DNA of 43,310 bases, from the IMG/VR virus record IMGVR_UViG_3300025648_000003, positions 1 to 43,310 of that record. One strand, given 5' to 3'. Below, piece by piece: positions 21,591-42,896 of the stretch (position 1 is the first letter of the stretch; the number at the start of each line of letters is the position of its first letter). The notes under the pieces were generated by a model. The model did not search any database and had not been told where the DNA came from. It was given only the letters and a program-made list of their open reading frames with translations. This DNA comes from a virus. The translations under genes and the position numbers were made by a program.

Positions 21591-23225
21591 TTATTTACCT
21601 TCTAAAAAACGTTGAACGAAATTGCCCTTACGAACGGCTGAATCCATTGCCGCACGACTAGGAGCACCCTTGCCTTTTAAGAACGCTTCTAAAGCAACTA
21701 CACGAGTTTCTTTTGGAGCTTCTAAGCCAAGTTGTTTGCAGCCATATTTAGCCATTTGGTCTAAATCCATATCAGCATGGTCAAAAGCACCGATATGCGC
21801 TGAGAGATGGTCATACAGCTTTGATTGTTTGGCAATATTAGCTTGAACTGTTTTAGCGATCAGAGCTGTGTCCATACCACTACCTCTTTCGCCTTCTTTT
21901 GGCTCAGTAGTAGCACCGCCTTGAGGAATTGGATCAGCTTCTTCATCAGTTGCTTCATCATCAGGCTTTTCTTCATCGCCATCAGGTTCTTCGGTATCCA
22001 TATCAGTTACAGCTTCAACACCAGCAGAACCGAATGATTGACCAGTTAATTCCTGAATCTTTGCCAATTTTGGCATGACTTCTTCGAGGAACTTATGCAC
22101 TTCCTCAAGAGTCATATTGGGTTTTTCAGCCCCTACTTCTTTGTTTTCTTCAGCCATGTTTAAAAACTCCTTATTATCTACAGTGAAAGTGAAATGATCT
22201 AAAACAGCGACTTCTTTACCCATGCGACCATTCTCGACTAGGGCAAGATGATTACCACGAATATCCCGTTGCACATAATCATAAGCCATCCCATTGTAAT
22301 TACTAGGGGCATATTCATATCTGCATCGGTATCCGCAGGATAATTCTTTTTTTCCATTTGCAATTAAATTACTCATTGCTTCTGAAAATACCTTGATGTT
22401 GCCTTTAAGTAAAGTGCCATCAAAATATACGTCTTCTCCAATAACCCCTTGAATGCCTTTATTTTCAGCAGGGGTTAATCCATCATCCTCACCACCAAGC
22501 ATGACATGGTTATCAATCCAAGGAATTAGCTTAAATGAATCTACGCATTCAGGAGTTGAGAGTTCTTCAGGAGAACGGAAAACATAATAGATTTTGTCAG
22601 GGTCGCAATCAGGAGATATTGAACGCCCTGAATAAGGGAAAACACCTACCATTGAAAGTGGATTGTCTTTTACTTCATACCATCCATTAGTATCATACTC
22701 ACGCTTATCCATCGCATTATTACCAGCTTCAACGGCTTTCGCAATTTCTTCGGATTCTTCCTCAATCTTGTGAAACAAGGGGCTTGGTGCATCTTCGATG
22801 GTAGCCCATACGAATTCATCATGTTCCTCATTTAAGTTAGGCTGGAATTCTCCATCGCTACATCCGTAAAGACGTACTTTTCCATCTGAATGGATTAGCT
22901 GTAAACCTGATTCAGGAACGTGCTGAGTTTCTTCCCTAGATTCACGAATAGCACCTTCAATAGGGGATTCGCCTTCTTCTACATGACCACCGGGAAACCC
23001 CCAAGAGCCATCTTTAGTACGTTTCATCCACAATATCTTGTTTTCATTTGTATAAACAATGAAAGCTACATATTTAGAATCAAATTCTTCATCATCTTGA
23101 GCACTTGTTTTACGAGCATTGGAATAGGCAATAGCTAAAGACTGTTTAGGGTCATGCCCTGCCTTGATCAATTCACGAATGTTATTCTGAATGACCTCTT
23201 TGCTTGATCCTTCTTGCAATGGCAT
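21591..23225 (-). CDS. Nudix + DUF2213 (prohead protease-like) + acidic scaffold-like fusion, 544 aa
   Basis: Three parts are visible. Residues 7-40 ([20 protein letters not shown]...) are a short motif common in phage head proteins. Residues about 50-165 form a Nudix hydrolase with an intact Nudix box from G80 to E99 (G80, E86, R94-E95, E98-E99). From about 200 to 355 follows DUF2213, a probable prohead protease, with IDNHVML and KELSCGY holding candidate His and Ser. The last 150 residues are acidic and helical ([16 protein letters not shown]), like a scaffold. The fusion would be processed in the prohead. A working Nudix domain in a head protein is unusual. Confidence 0.85.
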
Positions 23226-32219: not shown

Positions 32220-32501
32220 TCATGCAATTTTCTCTTTAACCATTTCTAATAAATCTTCTTCACTTATACCCCAATACTTTGTAAATCCTTTATGTCCAAG
32301 AGCGTGAATACTGGAATCTCCAAGCCTGTGATGGATAGCGCATAAAGGGATAACAGGGGCGAGACTTCGTTTTCCTCCGTATCTGCGGATATGGTGCATC
32401 TCTGTTGGAGAATCATCTGTTTCTCGTATGCCGTTGCATTGGCACAGAATACAGCCCAATCTCGCCAACTTAGCATAATTATCTTTTTCAGCTTTTGTCA
32501 T
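32220..32501 (-). CDS. Ref-like HNH nuclease, 93 aa
   Basis: The product shows the Ref/HNH pattern: MTKAEKDNYAKLARLGCILCQCNG, then TEMHHIRRYGGKRS (residues about 33-46), VIPLCAIHHRLGDSSIHALG and FTKYWGISEEDLLEMV. The H-H-I-R motif and L-C-x-x-H-H-R pair are the metal-binding catalytic core, with C17/C20 as zinc partners. P1 Ref is a RecA-dependent nuclease; phage relatives are small like this one. Start overlaps the TerL stop by 4 bases. Confidence 0.87.
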   Translation of the reverse strand: MTKAEKDNYAKLARLGCILCQCNGIRETDDSPTEMHHIRRYGGKRSLAPVIPLCAIHHRLGDSSIHALGHKGFTKYWGISEEDLLEMVKEKIA

Positions 32502-33877
32502 CCAAAGAAACTTCTTCTAGGTACTAATATTTCTGAGAATGCTCTTGCAAGAGCATCTACTTGGTCATCATTATTGCCATTAGGGAACAATCTCATTTCA
32601 CTTGTAAGAGCCATATTCCATTCTCCACGCAAAATCATTACGTTGCCAATGTTTACTTGAGCCGCAAAAGGTTCAGCTCTTGTGACTTTATCACCCGATT
32701 CAGGTGAACTCTTGACGTTATATCCAGCCAATTCTCTTGTTAAATAGATTACTTGGGTTTTTCCAGCTTGACCGGGGTCTTGCGGAATACTAATTTTTAT
32801 TGCTTTGGTATCCATTGCGGCTGTATTCATCATGGCTTTATCTCGCTCATCAGGACCACAGCGCAAACGAACAATGTCAGCAATGATGTATCTACCATCA
32901 GGCATTCTGCCTAATTTAGCTCCTACTGTGTAATCCCCATCCGTTGTGCTGGCTAAATCCCATGCCCTGCACCATTTAATATCAACACCAGCAGGGATAG
33001 CATCTATAACTTGTAATTGGTCAGGTTTAAACAATCCACCTTTAGAAGGTGAAGGTTTTTGCATATATTGACCTGAAAACACATAAGGATTGGCTTCTTC
33101 CATTCTATGTAAATCTTCAATCGTATGCTTAAAGTCCCATAAAGCTGTGTCATCATCCCCAATAGCAGGAATAATGATGCTTTCCCATTCCTCACCATTG
33201 CCACCAGCCTGTAGAAATCCTGACAAATCCCCTTCATGGAGTCTTTGCATAATGATAATAATAGGTGTCTCAGGACTATTGCAACGTGATTCAAGGGTGT
33301 TTCCAAACCATTCAATGACGTTATTACGCATGGTGTCACTATGAGCTTCATCTGCTTTGTGCGGATCATCAATGATAATTGCTCCACCAAAACCCGGTCT
33401 CATTTTTCCAGCACCAAAGCCAGTAATCGTGCCTCCTGCACCAGTAGCATAGACAACACCATTTTCAGTTGTACGCCAATCAGACTTTGAATTGCTATCC
33501 CAACGAATATGCACGTCAGGGAATATAGCCTTGTACTCCATGCTTTCTACCATCATTTTGGCATTGCCACTATTGTTTGTAGCTAAAGTGCCTGAATAGG
33601 ATGTATGAATAAACTCTGCATCAGGACAATGCCCAATTGCCCATGCTATAAAATTAACCACAGCAAGCTCGGTTTTTGAATATCTTGGCGGTATGTTGAT
33701 AATGAGTCTTTTGCACTCACCCATGTACACACGAGTAAGAGCATCGCAAATTACCTTGTGATGCCAGTTATCCTTCCATTTATAGTTCTTACGCTTCTTG
33801 AACATATATTTAGAAAAGAAGTGAAAGTTATCACGACATTCCACATAAAGAGCTAATCTTTGTGCTTCATCCATCAA
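32498..33877 (-). CDS. terL: Terminase large subunit
   Basis: The 459-residue product has an ATPase part with the deviant Walker A PPRYSKT (P63-T69), Walker B AIIIDDPHKADE, and PIIIIMQRLHEGDLSGF, followed by a nuclease part with WCRAWDLASTTDGDYTVGAKL and a final NGNNDDQVDALARAF. It pumps and cuts DNA during packaging. This terminase type (phage head-filling kind with R-Y-S-K-T) is often paired with the TerS type seen upstream. Start and stop overlap its neighbours by 4 bases. Confidence 0.95.
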   Translation of the reverse strand: MMDEAQRLALYVECRDNFHFFSKYMFKKRKNYKWKDNWHHKVICDALTRVYMGECKRLIINIPPRYSKTELAVVNFIAWAIGHCPDAEFIHTSYSGTLATNNSGNAKMMVESMEYKAIFPDVHIRWDSNSKSDWRTTENGVVYATGAGGTITGFGAGKMRPGFGGAIIIDDPHKADEAHSDTMRNNVIEWFGNTLESRCNSPETPIIIIMQRLHEGDLSGFLQAGGNGEEWESIIIPAIGDDDTALWDFKHTIEDLHRMEEANPYVFSGQYMQKPSPSKGGLFKPDQLQVIDAIPAGVDIKWCRAWDLASTTDGDYTVGAKLGRMPDGRYIIADIVRLRCGPDERDKAMMNTAAMDTKAIKISIPQDPGQAGKTQVIYLTRELAGYNVKSSPESGDKVTRAEPFAAQVNIGNVMILRGEWNMALTSEMRLFPNGNNDDQVDALARAFSEILVPRRSFFG

Positions 33878-34293
33878 TATTCTTCAAGAATCTCTTTTCT
33901 AGCCTTCAAGTATTCTTCAATGGATACATTACAAGCGACCAATGGACCACCATTTTCCCCTGTGATTTCAATGGCTTGTGCGGATTCTCTCCATTTTCCT
34001 CTTGTTTTCATCCAAAAGATTTGAGCAGATACATTGCCATTGATAGCTTGGTTATAGAGTGCTCCACCTACTGCGGCTGTTGCCTTTGCGCTTCCAAGGT
34101 CTAATTCTTCTCTGAAATATAAGTTAAGAGTCGCTAACCCAATACCTTTTCCAGTTTCAGGATTAATCACCATACGACAAATTTGATCTTGAGGTGTTCC
34201 TACTGCGGCTAATTGAGATACCTGTTGTTTTTGTTTGTCTGTGGGTTCAAAAGGTGGGTGTCCAGCTTTTTCCCGTTTTTGTTTAGTTGTCAT
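33874..34293 (-). CDS. terS: Terminase small subunit
   Basis: The 139-residue product reads GHPPFEPTDKQKQQVSQLAAVGTPQDQICRMV, then GIGLATLNLYFREELDLGSAKATAAVGGALYNQA (both cut), and AQIFWMKTRGKWRE. The first half is a homeodomain-like HTH that recognises the packaging start site (pac or cos); the helical second half builds the ring. The E-L-D-x-G-x-A-K-A and F-W-x-K-T-R-x-x-W-R signatures are typical of TerS of betaproteobacterial phages. Coupled to TerL by ATGA overlap. Confidence 0.9.
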   Translation of the reverse strand: MTTKQKREKAGHPPFEPTDKQKQQVSQLAAVGTPQDQICRMVINPETGKGIGLATLNLYFREELDLGSAKATAAVGGALYNQAINGNVSAQIFWMKTRGKWRESAQAIEITGENGGPLVACNVSIEEYLKARKEILEEY

Positions 34294-34295
34294 AT

Positions 34296-34694
34296 TTATC
34301 CTATAAGGCTAAGAATATCCTCATGTGGTTGTCCTTGCTTATGGACTGGATGAGTTGTTTCCATGTGGCTTTTGAATTTATCCCAATCCCTGCGGAAAAA
34401 TGGTTCAAAGATAATTCCTGACTTTATTGCTTGTTTGTAATTCATCCAGCCTAATTTATCTCGATGTCTGCAATGAACCATCATGTGACATCTAAAACAT
34501 AAATGGAAGGCATCTGTTTTTCCTGCTTGGAATGGTTCGCTGTAATCTTCAGCATGAGCATCCATAATTCCTTCATCTTGACCACAAGCGCAACAAACTG
34601 TTGGCTTTGGTAATCTAAATGATGCCCATTGTTGATTAAGCCATGCTTGTGCTTTGTTTCTTTGGGTAGGCGTAAAGCCATTATAAGATTTCAT
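34296..34694 (-). CDS. HNH-like zinc-binding protein next to terminase, 132 aa
   Basis: The product has NGFTPTQRNKAQAWLNQQWA, then CCACGQDEGIMDAHAEDYSEPF (split by context) and LCFRCHMMVHCRHRDKLGWMNY. C-x-x-C-G, D-A-H-A-E-D-Y and L-C-x-x-C-H-M-M-V-H are a His/Cys metal site as in HNH endonucleases; A-H-A-E-D-Y takes the place of the usual D-H. HNH proteins beside terminases (as in HK97) help cut DNA in packaging. Sits 2 bases before TerS. Confidence 0.8.
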   Translation of the reverse strand: MKSYNGFTPTQRNKAQAWLNQQWASFRLPKPTVCCACGQDEGIMDAHAEDYSEPFQAGKTDAFHLCFRCHMMVHCRHRDKLGWMNYKQAIKSGIIFEPFFRRDWDKFKSHMETTHPVHKQGQPHEDILSLIG

Positions 34695-35242
34695 ATCTTC
34701 CTCAAATACGCTACATTTTTATGAATCTTAATCACTTTGTAATGTTTTGACACTAGCTGGCATTCATCTTCCAATGATGCCAACGCATTAATCGCTGTTT
34801 TAGTGGCTATTCTGCCTTCAATAAAAATCTCTTGAACTCCTAATTGAGATAGTAATTCTATGAATACTTGTCCAAACTCTATGTCATTGCCAAACAATTC
34901 AGGGAAGCAACGTCTTGCAACTAATGTATCTATTTTAAACTTTTTTATGATCTGAGCAAGTTCTTTTAGCGTTTCAGGCAATATATTTAGACATATCAAT
35001 TGAACATCAATGCCCGAAAGACTGGCTAAACTGACCGCTGTTTCATCAGCATCCACTCCAATAACATCATAAACAAGGTGTTGTTTGATTCTTTGAGCAA
35101 GCAAACCAGTAGAACAGCACAAGTCTAAAAAACTTTTTCCTTTGCTATAAGCCAATATGGCATGAAAAATATCATCATGGATTGCTGGAAATCGTTTTCC
35201 AGTTTTCCACGTTACAAGGTGCTGTTCAGAGTTGAATCTCAT
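34691..35242 (-). CDS. Rossmann/SAM-methyltransferase-like protein, 183 aa
   Basis: Residues 37-47, FLDLCCSTGLL, and VIGVDADETAVSLASLSG further on look like motifs I and II of class I SAM-dependent methyltransferases (D-x-x-x-x-x-G then an acidic residue). The expected DNA-methyltransferase motif IV (DPPY, NPPY or SPPY) is absent: the position reads IDTLVARRCFPELFG. So it may methylate something else, or bind a nucleotide without methylating. It is coupled by ATGA overlaps to the ParB-fold gene upstream and HNH gene downstream. Confidence 0.7.
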   Translation of the reverse strand: MRFNSEQHLVTWKTGKRFPAIHDDIFHAILAYSKGKSFLDLCCSTGLLAQRIKQHLVYDVIGVDADETAVSLASLSGIDVQLICLNILPETLKELAQIIKKFKIDTLVARRCFPELFGNDIEFGQVFIELLSQLGVQEIFIEGRIATKTAINALASLEDECQLVSKHYKVIKIHKNVAYLRKI

Positions 35243-35763
35243 TTTTTGTCATTCTTACTTTCATGGGGATACCAAGCCTTAGAATATTTGTAATCTTTAA
35301 TATTTTTCATCTTGAATACTCCATCTTGATACAAAAGATCAATTTCATCCATTGTTGCTCCAATGTTATCCGCTATTTGCTGTGGATCATAATTGTGAGT
35401 ATCAATCAATTCTTTGATAATTTCGCTCATCTGAATAGCAACATGGCTACCTTTGGCTCTATTAATCCTAATGGTTAATAACATAGCTTCAGGTTTAGTC
35501 AACTTCATAACTACACAGGGTACTTTCCCTTCATAGCGTTTTTTAAGAGCTTCGCTATCCATACTGAGTTTCCAACGATGAAATCCATCAATAACCATGC
35601 CATCAGGATTAATGATTATTGGTTGAATCCAGCCACATTTGAGGATAGAACGCTCTAATAATTTCAATTCAGGAGTAAATACCACATTTGGATTCCAGCC
35701 ATTTGCCTCTAAGGACTTGGAATCTCGCCATTGGATATTGTCAATTGGTTCTTTACTTGTCAT
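35239..35763 (-). CDS. ParB/IbrB-like domain protein, 174 aa
   Basis: The first 110 residues are a ParB/sulfiredoxin-type N-terminal domain: IQWRDSKSLEANGWNPNVV, CGWIQPIIINPDGMVIDGFHRWKLS (residues 43-67 region, cut) and KPEAMLLTIRINRAKGSH. The IDGFHRW replaces the classic GERR/GHGR loop. The C-terminal part is helical (QIADNIGATMDEIDLLYQDG), like an HTH but unproven. With the adjoining PAPS-reductase-like gene it repeats the IbrA-IbrB pair known from E. coli prophages. ParB-type folds can bind and hydrolyse nucleotides. Confidence 0.82.
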   Translation of the reverse strand: MTSKEPIDNIQWRDSKSLEANGWNPNVVFTPELKLLERSILKCGWIQPIIINPDGMVIDGFHRWKLSMDSEALKKRYEGKVPCVVMKLTKPEAMLLTIRINRAKGSHVAIQMSEIIKELIDTHNYDPQQIADNIGATMDEIDLLYQDGVFKMKNIKDYKYSKAWYPHESKNDKK

Positions 35764-36821
35764 TTCTTTTTTCGCTCAGGAAGAATGTTTCGTTTAAATG
35801 CTCCACTCATAAAAGCACCAAGAACATATAGTGGTGGATATGCGTCAGGATATTTAACTGCGCTGGCTTTTACAGTTTCAAGTCGTTTGAGTGCCAATTC
35901 ATATTGACGCTCATCCTCATTAAGGTTGTCCTCAATCCAAGATCGTATTCCTTCAAAGGATTGACCATATTTTTGTTTAATGGCATTACGATCAAGCTCA
36001 TGCCAATAACGCTCATGTACCAGCATTTCAGGAAAAACTTTGATAATTCGTTGGTAAAAATCAGGAGTTGTCTGCCTTACTAAATCAAAACGCTTGGCGG
36101 CTTCAGCATGAAGTGGTGTAGAAACCCTTAATCCATTACCAGCCCACATCTGCATATCGTAGATTTTGCAGTATTGGATTTCCCTGTCATAAAAGTATTT
36201 GAAGATGTCATTTTCTTCCCAATCAAATAAAGGTTTGCAAAGCATGACATTCTTAATACTTTGATCGCTTACTGCATTAATATAGTTTTCATTGAGCTTA
36301 TTGACGCTTGCCCGAAACCGCATTAATGATTCACTTGATCTAATACCAGTCAAAAAGGCAATTTTTCCTTTATAAAACTTGGCAGTAAAGGCATCCATTG
36401 AATATTGGTCAAATTCACGATTATCACCATCGGGTAAGCTGTATGCCCATTCAGGCTTTTCTCTTACCCAAGGTCTTTTGGTATCCCATTGTGTATAGCT
36501 GTGAGTTACACCTAAGATATATTTTGCACTCTTTAAAGGAACGCAAAACCAAATCATATTAATCCAAGACTCCATTCGATATTTATCTACAAAATGGATA
36601 ACTTCATCAGGAATAAGCTCCTCATCACGAAATACCACATCCATTGGTTTAGTTATTCCTCGCTCATCCATGACTTCTTTGACTAAATGGATAACTGCAA
36701 GGCTGTCTTTACCGCCTGAAAACATGACCACAATAGAATCAAAAGCATCAAATAAATGATGAATTCGCTTTTTTCCTTCTGTTAGCACATCAGTATCAAT
36801 GTACTTCTTGACTTTAGCCAA
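35760..36821 (-). CDS. PAPS-reductase-family ATP pyrophosphatase (IbrA-like), 353 aa
   Basis: Residues 31-40, VVMFSGGKDS, are the PP-loop (S35-S40) that binds ATP pyrophosphate. Downstream are DVVFRDEELIPDEVIHFVDKY, IAFLTGIRSSESLMRFR (the R-S-x-E-S-x-x-R motif of the family) and PLFDWEENDIFKYFYDREI. The C-terminal part (RVSTPLHAEAAKRFDLVRQTTPDFYQRII, cut) resembles the DUF3440 end of IbrA. True PAPS reductases carry a C-terminal ECGLH motif; none is seen, so sulfate reduction is unlikely. Nucleotide-activating or DNA/RNA-modifying chemistry is more likely. Lies between two ParB-fold genes. Confidence 0.85.
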   Translation of the reverse strand: MAKVKKYIDTDVLTEGKKRIHHLFDAFDSIVVMFSGGKDSLAVIHLVKEVMDERGITKPMDVVFRDEELIPDEVIHFVDKYRMESWINMIWFCVPLKSAKYILGVTHSYTQWDTKRPWVREKPEWAYSLPDGDNREFDQYSMDAFTAKFYKGKIAFLTGIRSSESLMRFRASVNKLNENYINAVSDQSIKNVMLCKPLFDWEENDIFKYFYDREIQYCKIYDMQMWAGNGLRVSTPLHAEAAKRFDLVRQTTPDFYQRIIKVFPEMLVHERYWHELDRNAIKQKYGQSFEGIRSWIEDNLNEDERQYELALKRLETVKASAVKYPDAYPPLYVLGAFMSGAFKRNILPERKKK

Positions 36822-37401
36822 GGTCTAACTCCCCAATGTATTCAGAAAGACGCTGTCCAACGCTGTCAGTTTCAGGGAATTTTTCCTTTAAAAAGCGGAT
36901 AAAAGCATAAAAGACTTCTTGTTGTTCTTCATCATCAAAAACAATGTTGTACTGGATGGAAAAGTTTAATGGCTTATCACTAGGATCAGTTGATTTAATG
37001 GGTTCAGGATACATAATTTGAGATAGTTCTTCACCATCAAAACCCATCATTGCCATGTCAAATTTCATATCTGAAAGGTCATGGAGTTCAATTTTGAGCA
37101 GTTCATTGTCCCAATCAGAATTCAATGCCAGCTTATTGTTTGTCAAAATGTAGGCTTGTTTTTGAGCTTTTGACAATCCATCAATTTTTACAAAAGGAAC
37201 TTTAAGCATTCCCAATTTTCTTGCGGCTAAAACTCGCCCATGTCCAGCAAGAATCATATTGTCTTCATCGACCTCAATAGGATCATTAAAACCAAATTCC
37301 TTGATTGATGCCACAATCTGAGCTACTTGAAGATCGCTATGATTTCTAGCATTTTTGGCATAAGGAATTAATTTCTCAATTTCAATTTCTGCGGTTTTCA
37401 T
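36814..37401 (-). CDS. ParB N-terminal-domain protein, 195 aa
   Basis: Residues 1-130 match the ParB domain usually fused to DNA methyltransferases: KLIPYAKNARNHSDLQVAQI, SIKEFGFNDPIEVDEDNMILAGHGRVLAARKLG (cut), and LTNNKLALNSDWDNELLKIEL. The GHGRVLAARK loop is intact. The methyltransferase part is missing; instead about 60 residues follow (NIVFDDEEQQEVFYAFIRFLKEKFPETDSVG, cut). First gene of the packaging/modification unit, with AAAGGGA upstream and a possible promoter in the 46-base gap before it. No HTH for parS binding is present. Confidence 0.88.
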   Translation of the reverse strand: MKTAEIEIEKLIPYAKNARNHSDLQVAQIVASIKEFGFNDPIEVDEDNMILAGHGRVLAARKLGMLKVPFVKIDGLSKAQKQAYILTNNKLALNSDWDNELLKIELHDLSDMKFDMAMMGFDGEELSQIMYPEPIKSTDPSDKPLNFSIQYNIVFDDEEQQEVFYAFIRFLKEKFPETDSVGQRLSEYIGELDLG

Positions 37402-41895: not shown

Positions 41896-41921
41896 CTTTG
41901 ACAAACACGAAAGGAATCAAA

Positions 41922-42896
41922 ATGGCACACGAATTAACTGAAAGAGAAAATGGTTTTGTTGAAATGGCTTTTGTCGGGGAAACACCTTGGCATGGTCTTG
42001 GACAAACGCTTGAAGCTGACGCAACCATTGAACAATGGCAAGTAGCCGCTGGTATGGATTGGACAATTGAATCCTCCCCAGTTGCTTATGGAACTGGTCA
42101 AGGTGTAATAAAAACACCATTGGAAATTTTTGAAGGTCAAAATGTTCTATATAGATCAGATACTAAAATGCCTTTATCCGTTGTATCTAATAGATATAAA
42201 GCGGTACAGCCTTTGGAAGTCCTTGAGTTTTTCCGTGACTTGGTGGCTAAAAATGGATTTAAGATCAATACAGCAGGAACTCTAAAAGGTGGCAAGCACC
42301 TATGGGCATTAGCTGAAACTGGCAAATTTGGTGAAGTCTGCAAAGATGATGGTGTCGGTGGCTTTTTGTTACTGTCAACATCATGCGATAGGACATTGGC
42401 AACGACAGCAAGGTTTACGACAGTTCGTGTGGTTTGTAACAATACATTGACGGCTTCATTGCAGAGTAATCAAAATACAGTGTCATTTAGTCACTTGAGT
42501 CAGTTTAACCATGAAGCAGTTAAAGCAAAACTGGGCAATGCGGTTGAAAGTTTTGGTTCTTTTATGGAAATGGCTAAACACCTACAAGCACAACAACTAG
42601 GGGCATTGGCTTCTGAGAACTTCCTCAAAAATCTATTGACAAGTTTTAGTCAAATTAATGATCCTGACTATGACATGACTAAAAATCGGGCTTACAAAAA
42701 GATTATTTCTTTGTTTGATTGTGAAGCCAAAGGACTCAGTTTAGTTGGACATACCAAGTGGGGAATGCTCAATGCTGTTACTGAATATGTTGACTTCCAT
42801 AATCCAAGTAGAACCAATGATTCTAGGTTGAGTAATGCTTGGTTTGGTAATGGTGATCGTATGAAATTAAAGGCTGTAGAGCTTTTAACAGTCTAG
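41922..42896 (+). CDS. DUF932 family protein, 324 aa
   Basis: I choose the ATG at 41922 (MAHELTERENGFVEMAFVGE) with AAAGGA upstream; an upstream TTG at 41898 is rejected. The product has TPWHGLGQTL, LSVVSNRYKAVQPLEVLEFFRDLV, GTLKGGKHLWALAETGKF, GFLLLSTSCDRTLATTARFTTVRVVCNNTLTASL (cut) and NAWFGNGDRMKLKAVELL near the end, all DUF932 marks. The family is common on plasmids and phages and thought to act in DNA metabolism, but its activity is unknown. Confidence 0.9.
   Translation: MAHELTERENGFVEMAFVGETPWHGLGQTLEADATIEQWQVAAGMDWTIESSPVAYGTGQGVIKTPLEIFEGQNVLYRSDTKMPLSVVSNRYKAVQPLEVLEFFRDLVAKNGFKINTAGTLKGGKHLWALAETGKFGEVCKDDGVGGFLLLSTSCDRTLATTARFTTVRVVCNNTLTASLQSNQNTVSFSHLSQFNHEAVKAKLGNAVESFGSFMEMAKHLQAQQLGALASENFLKNLLTSFSQINDPDYDMTKNRAYKKIISLFDCEAKGLSLVGHTKWGMLNAVTEYVDFHNPSRTNDSRLSNAWFGNGDRMKLKAVELLTV

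Follow-up and report, generated by a model that had tools for sequence, protein, structure and literature searches.

A phage cassette of two ParB-fold proteins, a PP-loop enzyme and a methyltransferase or acetyltransferase as a candidate DNA-hypermodification module

What do four overlapping genes placed directly ahead of a phage's packaging genes do, and is DNA their substrate? The question is raised by the window, meaning the whole 43,310-base IMG/VR virus record IMGVR_UViG_3300025648_000003, in which an original prediction from sequence had proposed a candidate DNA-modification system with a hint of sulfur chemistry. We find that the four genes are a genuine conserved module recurring in unrelated phages, and that the cassette is best read as a DNA-hypermodification module of the phage whose chemistry has yet to be described (probability about 0.6). 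The gene layout proposed earlier was confirmed: all four genes lie on the minus strand and overlap by 8, 4 and 4 bases, and the last overlaps the following HNH gene by another 4.

36814-37401, minus strand: ParB1, 195 amino acids, ATG start (phrog_620, 5e-51; phrog_498, 4e-45)
35760-36821, minus strand: IbrA-like PP-loop enzyme of the 3'-phosphoadenosine 5'-phosphosulfate (PAPS) reductase fold, 353 amino acids (Pfam PF01507, PAPS_reduct, 5e-17; phrog_2302, 9e-114)
35239-35763, minus strand: IbrB-like ParB/Srx protein, 174 amino acids, ATG start (phrog_2159, 9e-70)
34691-35242, minus strand: class-I S-adenosylmethionine (SAM)-dependent methyltransferase (MT), 183 amino acids, ATG start (phrog_11826, 3e-32)

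The PP-loop open reading frame (ORF) starts at a TTG codon, giving an N-terminus of MAKVKK that agrees with its homologues. Profile searches upheld the family calls made earlier, and the two motifs that had been singled out are present, GHGR in a ParB1 loop (the IbrB-like protein has GFHR) and SGGKDS in the PP-loop protein. The fourth gene, first described as Rossmann/SAM-like, can be refined to a class-I methyltransferase fold in a slot that is shared with a GNAT acetyltransferase.

To delimit the cassette, an alignment of the PP-loop protein was used to search viral contigs, where 80 of 135 loci were kept, and species genomes, which gave 11 loci; both scans rely on short conserved patterns, and divergent members are missed. 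Dereplication at 90% identity left 60 loci, 46 of which had sufficient flanking DNA (contigs are fragments, and ORF calling was mechanical). Each of these 46 viral or prophage loci carried one ParB gene immediately upstream of the PP-loop gene and a second immediately downstream. Because the ParB profile alone cannot tell the two apart, the downstream gene was assigned as IbrB by position and motifs, and the upstream gene as ParB1. Rare co-occurrence of these genes would have counted against the original prediction; the outcome favours it, since the same order recurs in every one of the loci and the module is not a product of chance. Few PP-loop copies were found in species genomes, mostly in Nocardia, so this PP-loop branch looks largely phage-borne. 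A literature search, mainly outside subscription papers, returned no account of the cassette as a DNA-modification system. IbrB was the most conserved partner, with 80–82% identity to relatives against 54–71% for TerL where compared, and its motifs NPN, DGFHR and TIRxNRAKGxH were conserved in 49 aligned homologues; dN/dS for the window against its relatives was uninformative, as synonymous sites were saturated. In several cassettes ParB1 is present as two neighbouring paralogues (L013, 4244-4942; L011, 3404-4758; L042; L047). In Rhizobium phage RHph_I4, the second cassette gene is annotated as a DNA methyltransferase, an assignment that we rejected as the gene is a second ParB1.

We put the probability that the cassette modifies DNA at 0.6–0.7, and the main support is its position. 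In the window it runs directly into three packaging genes, as had been predicted and as coordinates and profile matches bear out:

34296-34694, minus strand: HNH protein (phrog_2340 endonuclease, 4e-6)
33874-34293, minus strand: TerS, terminase small subunit (phrog_309, 8e-10)
32498-33877, minus strand: TerL, terminase large subunit (PF17289, 1e-14; phrog_38, 8e-104)

HNH is a common downstream neighbour of the cassette (profile matches in 55 loci) and probably belongs to the packaging block rather than to the cassette. The place before TerL was then compared among cluster-B mycobacteriophages and relatives with homologous TerL proteins, with Sabella, of the Rosebush species, standing in for Rosebush:

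Phlyer (L104): ParB1, two small genes, PP-loop gene, IbrB
Sabella (L105): ParB homologue, DpdA, QueC, QueD, QueE, FolE
Zemanar (L106): ParB, DpdA
Gordonia phage MakoManhole (L107): ParB, oxidoreductase, aGPT-PPlase2, kinase
Vortex (L109): no module

Two of these alternatives lead to known or predicted DNA modifications. Rosebush DNA carries 2'-deoxy-7-cyano-7-deazaguanosine (dPreQ0) on ~28% of G, as measured by liquid chromatography–mass spectrometry (PMC6884629), and the MakoManhole gene set is close to the five-gene set of phage Tonitrus, described as a possible thymidine-hypermodification system (PMC11955845). The ParB domain of Phlyer gp1 is 47–56% identical to those of Sabella, Zemanar and MakoManhole gp1, all three of which are matched by the ParB1 profile at 2e-30 or better; ParB is therefore the constant part, while the enzymes vary. 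This observation suggests that the slot before TerL in actinobacteriophages is a standard, exchangeable one, in which a constant ParB is combined with differing sets of DNA-modification enzymes. The argument rests on the mycobacteriophage cassette and is carried to the window phage by homology.

ParB1 itself points the same way. It consists of a ParB/Srx domain (about residues 1–130), whose phrog_498 match covers the N-terminal part of ParB–DNA-methyltransferase fusions, and a C-terminal domain (about residues 140–195, 'FDDEEQQ...') not found in ParB of the DpdA or thymine modules. A search of 50,697 phage records with the C-terminal domain by itself gave 55 matches (52 Mycobacterium, 3 Arthrobacter), all in phage groups that have the PP-loop cassette, as judged by group rather than per accession; the search misses divergent copies, such as those of Bacillus. 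Within the domain, all 59 upstream ParB1 proteins keep F155 and 56 of them keep R184, and the domain may serve to dock the PP-loop enzyme or IbrB. Elsewhere, the proteins most closely related to the window ParB1 either bear the annotation DNA methyltransferase or form part of such an enzyme, and ParB domains also accompany the phage CmoX base-modification enzymes (PMC12783734). Given a slot shared with known and predicted modification modules, a homologous ParB and a C-terminal domain restricted to cassette-bearing phage groups, DNA modification is the best reading of the locus.

The fourth position of the cassette is exchanged between two enzyme types. Of the 46 loci, 19 had an MT there and 18 a GNAT acetyltransferase; nine had neither, and none had both (P=1.7e-6 under independence). 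No locus with both appeared at 80, 70 or 60% dereplication either (41, 30 and 19 loci; P=2e-5, 0.003 and 0.017, respectively). When MT and GNAT are mapped onto a maximum-likelihood tree built from 59 PP-loop proteins, at least nine changes are required, or 17 when 'none' is counted as a state. The labels alternate between fairly close relatives, such as Kovu (GNAT) and L088 (MT), which are 77.5% identical, and L020 (MT) and L023 (GNAT), at 78%; the two enzymes thus appear interchangeable and presumably act on one substrate. In some loci the gene occupies an alternative slot between the PP-loop gene and IbrB, where MT and GNAT each occur. The 18 MT-bearing phage records are those of Arthrobacter, Bacillus and prophi79-1 phages, groups that have the PP-loop gene. 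Inspection by eye of the loci with neither enzyme revealed no recurring third type of capping enzyme. The predicted MT model shows a confident class-I fold (predicted local distance difference test, pLDDT, 95) with the family-invariant motifs IH, D40, GL, ARR-x3-E and GR. The slot GNAT is an ordinary coenzyme A-binding GNAT (matches at 6e-11), and a relationship to Mu Mom was rejected at an hhalign probability of 0.4%. As a separate observation, the five PP-loop homologues that lack Cys218 (L062, L065, L067, L068 and L041) all belong to GNAT-type cassettes.

The core of the cassette is the PP-loop enzyme, in which the SGGKDS and GxRxxESxxR motifs are invariant in 59/59 homologues. Its AlphaFold model (pLDDT 91.5) gave human and yeast FAD synthase as the best PDB fold matches (8e-8), followed by CysD, CysH and tRNA-modifying PP-loop enzymes. 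Neither FAD synthase nor CysD relies on cysteine chemistry to transfer AMP, which makes an adenylating role most likely for the modelled enzyme. Since the product apparently accepts either a methyl or an acetyl group, and an acetyl group on sulfur would be a labile thioester, an amine-type acceptor is the simplest guess for the core mark, and the weakest step of the argument.

Taken together, these features are consistent with a new type of DNA mark, in which cysteine-independent adenylation by an IbrA-family PP-loop enzyme and two ParB-fold proteins would install an amine-type group whose methyl or acetyl cap has been repeatedly exchanged. We advance this full chemistry tentatively and regard it as possible rather than probable. 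The ParB domain of ParB1 would bind DNA and a nucleotide, as a proposed DNA-binding and NTPase adaptor, and its cassette-specific C-terminal domain would hold the enzyme in place. With ATP, the PP-loop enzyme and IbrB would adenylate a position in DNA or a donor molecule, letting a small nucleophile, most simply an amine, become attached. The last enzyme would then cap the attached group, with methyl in the window phage and with acetyl in the GNAT phages, and the finished mark may shield packaged DNA from host nucleases. Several points weigh against this proposal or parts of it. The nine loci of 46 without a capping enzyme mean that the core must work alone; the amine is deduced from the methyl/acetyl interchange alone; a fold like that of FAD synthase, seen in a predicted model, could also indicate that a small molecule is adenylated; no (D/N/S)PP(Y/F/W) motif, typical of DNA amino-methyltransferases, is present in the MT; and the originally named IbrA/IbrB pair has been described as an activator of prophage genes (Sandt 2002, cited in PMC10434257).

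The strongest rival is that the core acts on a target other than DNA, such as tRNA, rRNA, protein or a nucleotide or cofactor (NAD, FAD), in host takeover or anti-defence. The FAD synthase fold fits this view, as do the MT fold matches, which were to generic class-I methyltransferases only, including tRNA, ribosomal-protein and small-molecule enzymes; for that reason and for the missing motif, we rejected the MT as a DNA amino-methyltransferase. GNATs, moreover, often acetylate proteins. We nevertheless consider a non-DNA target unlikely, as the ParB1 family is tied to DNA methyltransferases and DpdA, and the cassette sits in the slot of DNA-modification modules.

A second rival retains DNA as the target and has the PP-loop protein insert sulfur, by phosphorothioation or thiolation in the manner of DndC or SspD. 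It draws on a weak DndC similarity (PADLOC, 7e-7; NCBIfam TIGR03183, 3e-5), on the description of DndB as a ParB-superfamily protein, and on the broad PAPS-reductase superfamily that includes DndC, SspD and BrxP (PMC12839542). Yet the TIGR03183 score is 23 against a cut-off of 290, and DndC was not among the 50 best fold matches, the presence of a DndC structure in the searched library being unchecked. DndC carries 4Fe-4S cysteines and a Cys dyad (PMC10853773), whereas no cysteine is invariant across the 59 homologues: C218 is kept in 54 and replaced by A or S in the remaining five, and one homologue (L062) is devoid of cysteine. In the window protein, cysteines occur only at residues 93, 195 and 218 of its 353. 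This lack of an invariant cysteine disfavours both DndC and PAPS reductase, and the instability of an acetylated sulfur is a further difficulty. A PHROGs scan of 30 window ORFs showed no desulfurase, DndD/DndE or SspB/SspC, in line with the original prediction, which had noted the absence of the usual Dnd/Ssp partners; other loci were not searched with dedicated models. We therefore rejected Dnd-like sulfur chemistry as a first choice and regard it as improbable. DNA modification, as originally predicted, gains from the cluster-B slot, whereas the accompanying hint of thiolation or phosphorothioation is not borne out by the cysteines, the missing CysH and DndC motifs or the FAD synthase fold.

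It is similarly hard to credit that the genes are transcription co-activators of the IbrA/IbrB type, acting on prophage genes and doing no chemistry on DNA. Phage annotators use the IbrA/IbrB name, and in E. coli, activation of the prophage eib genes has been reported for the IbrAB island (Sandt 2002, cited in PMC10434257). However, invariant PP-loop and GxRxxESxxR residues are typical of an enzyme, and this PP-loop branch comes with capping enzymes and a ParB1 of its own. An auxiliary metabolic gene for sulfate assimilation, as phage PAPS reductases are often annotated and as the Pfam PAPS_reduct match might suggest, can be dismissed: PAPS reductase uses a C-terminal catalytic Cys, the CysH-type version of which (ECGxH) is absent from the window protein, the TIGR00434 (CysH) score is 24.8 against a cut-off of 165.1, and the PP-loop gene is always accompanied by two ParB proteins.

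If DNA hypermodification is correct, the cassette would make a DNA mark new to phages, on which methyl and acetyl caps can replace each other, and the widespread IbrA/IbrB pair would for the first time be given a chemistry. More than 200 records of sequenced phages contain genes of this type, for the most part under the labels 'PAPS reductase' or 'ParB partition'; our analysis argues that these labels, the first implying sulfur metabolism, are misleading for the cassette branch. DNA modification by the cassette would also suggest that phages reserve a standard place ahead of the terminase, where ParB stays constant and the enzyme sets are exchanged. Genes as yet uncharacterised that occupy this slot in other phages may represent new modification systems. 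Phage isolates of M. smegmatis, Arthrobacter and B. subtilis allow the proposed mark to be tested for directly.

Beyond the cassette and packaging genes, RusA and NinB genes precede the cassette in the window (profile search), and Erf, RecE-like and SSB genes lie at its other end. Two further minus-strand genes were noted:

32220-32501, minus strand: Ref-like RecA-dependent nuclease (PF16786, 3e-10), directly after TerL and additional to the HNH before TerS
21591-23225, minus strand: head maturation protease (phrog_3778, 1e-129)

Residues 45–153 of the protease match MutT/Nudix hydrolases (8e-17), making a Nudix–protease fusion possible. Near the right end, on the strand opposite to the cassette, 41898-42896 (plus strand) encodes a 332-amino-acid protein of the unknown-function family phrog_1221 (3e-56).

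Among known systems, the IbrA/IbrB pairs of E. coli phage PhiR5_2 and of Streptococcus and Flavobacterium phages share PHROGs 2302 and 2159 and the same adjacent order with the cassette. Unlike it, the pairs checked (PYS40 and PhiR5_2) have no ParB1 or MT/GNAT nearby, and IbrA of Streptococcus PYS40 has a C-terminal Pfam DUF3440 domain (2e-86), for which the window PP-loop protein shows no match at E 0.05. With DndC, SspD and BrxP the cassette enzyme has the PP-loop fold of the PAPS-reductase superfamily in common, but it lacks their conserved cysteines and scores far below the model cut-off. Thymine-hypermodification modules (MakoManhole, Tonitrus) combine ParB with a JBP/TET-type oxygenase, aGPT-PPlase2 and a 5-hydroxymethyluracil (5hmU) DNA kinase; they share the slot, the ParB-first order and a multi-step enzyme set ending at the terminase (MakoManhole), whereas the cassette has no oxygenase, pyrophosphorylase or kinase. 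The dPreQ0/Dpd-type module of Rosebush-like phages is found at the same place in related phages, ahead of a homologous TerL, and starts with a ParB gene, whose ParB domain is 48% identical to that of Phlyer gp1. DpdB, a ParB-like partner, is an ATPase in the insertion of dPreQ0 according to PMC12839542. Where that module has DpdA and Que enzymes, the cassette has the PP-loop enzyme, IbrB and an MT or GNAT, and the ParB C-terminal domains differ; profile scans of the four genes and of 30 window ORFs found no DpdA (tRNA-guanine transglycosylase-like) enzyme. Finally, ParB1 stands alone and the cassette MT is a separate, small class-I enzyme without the DNA amino-methyltransferase motif, yet in the ParB–DNA-methyltransferase fusions of phrog_498 and in the CmoX/CmoY modules a homologous ParB domain again stands beside phage DNA-modifying enzymes.

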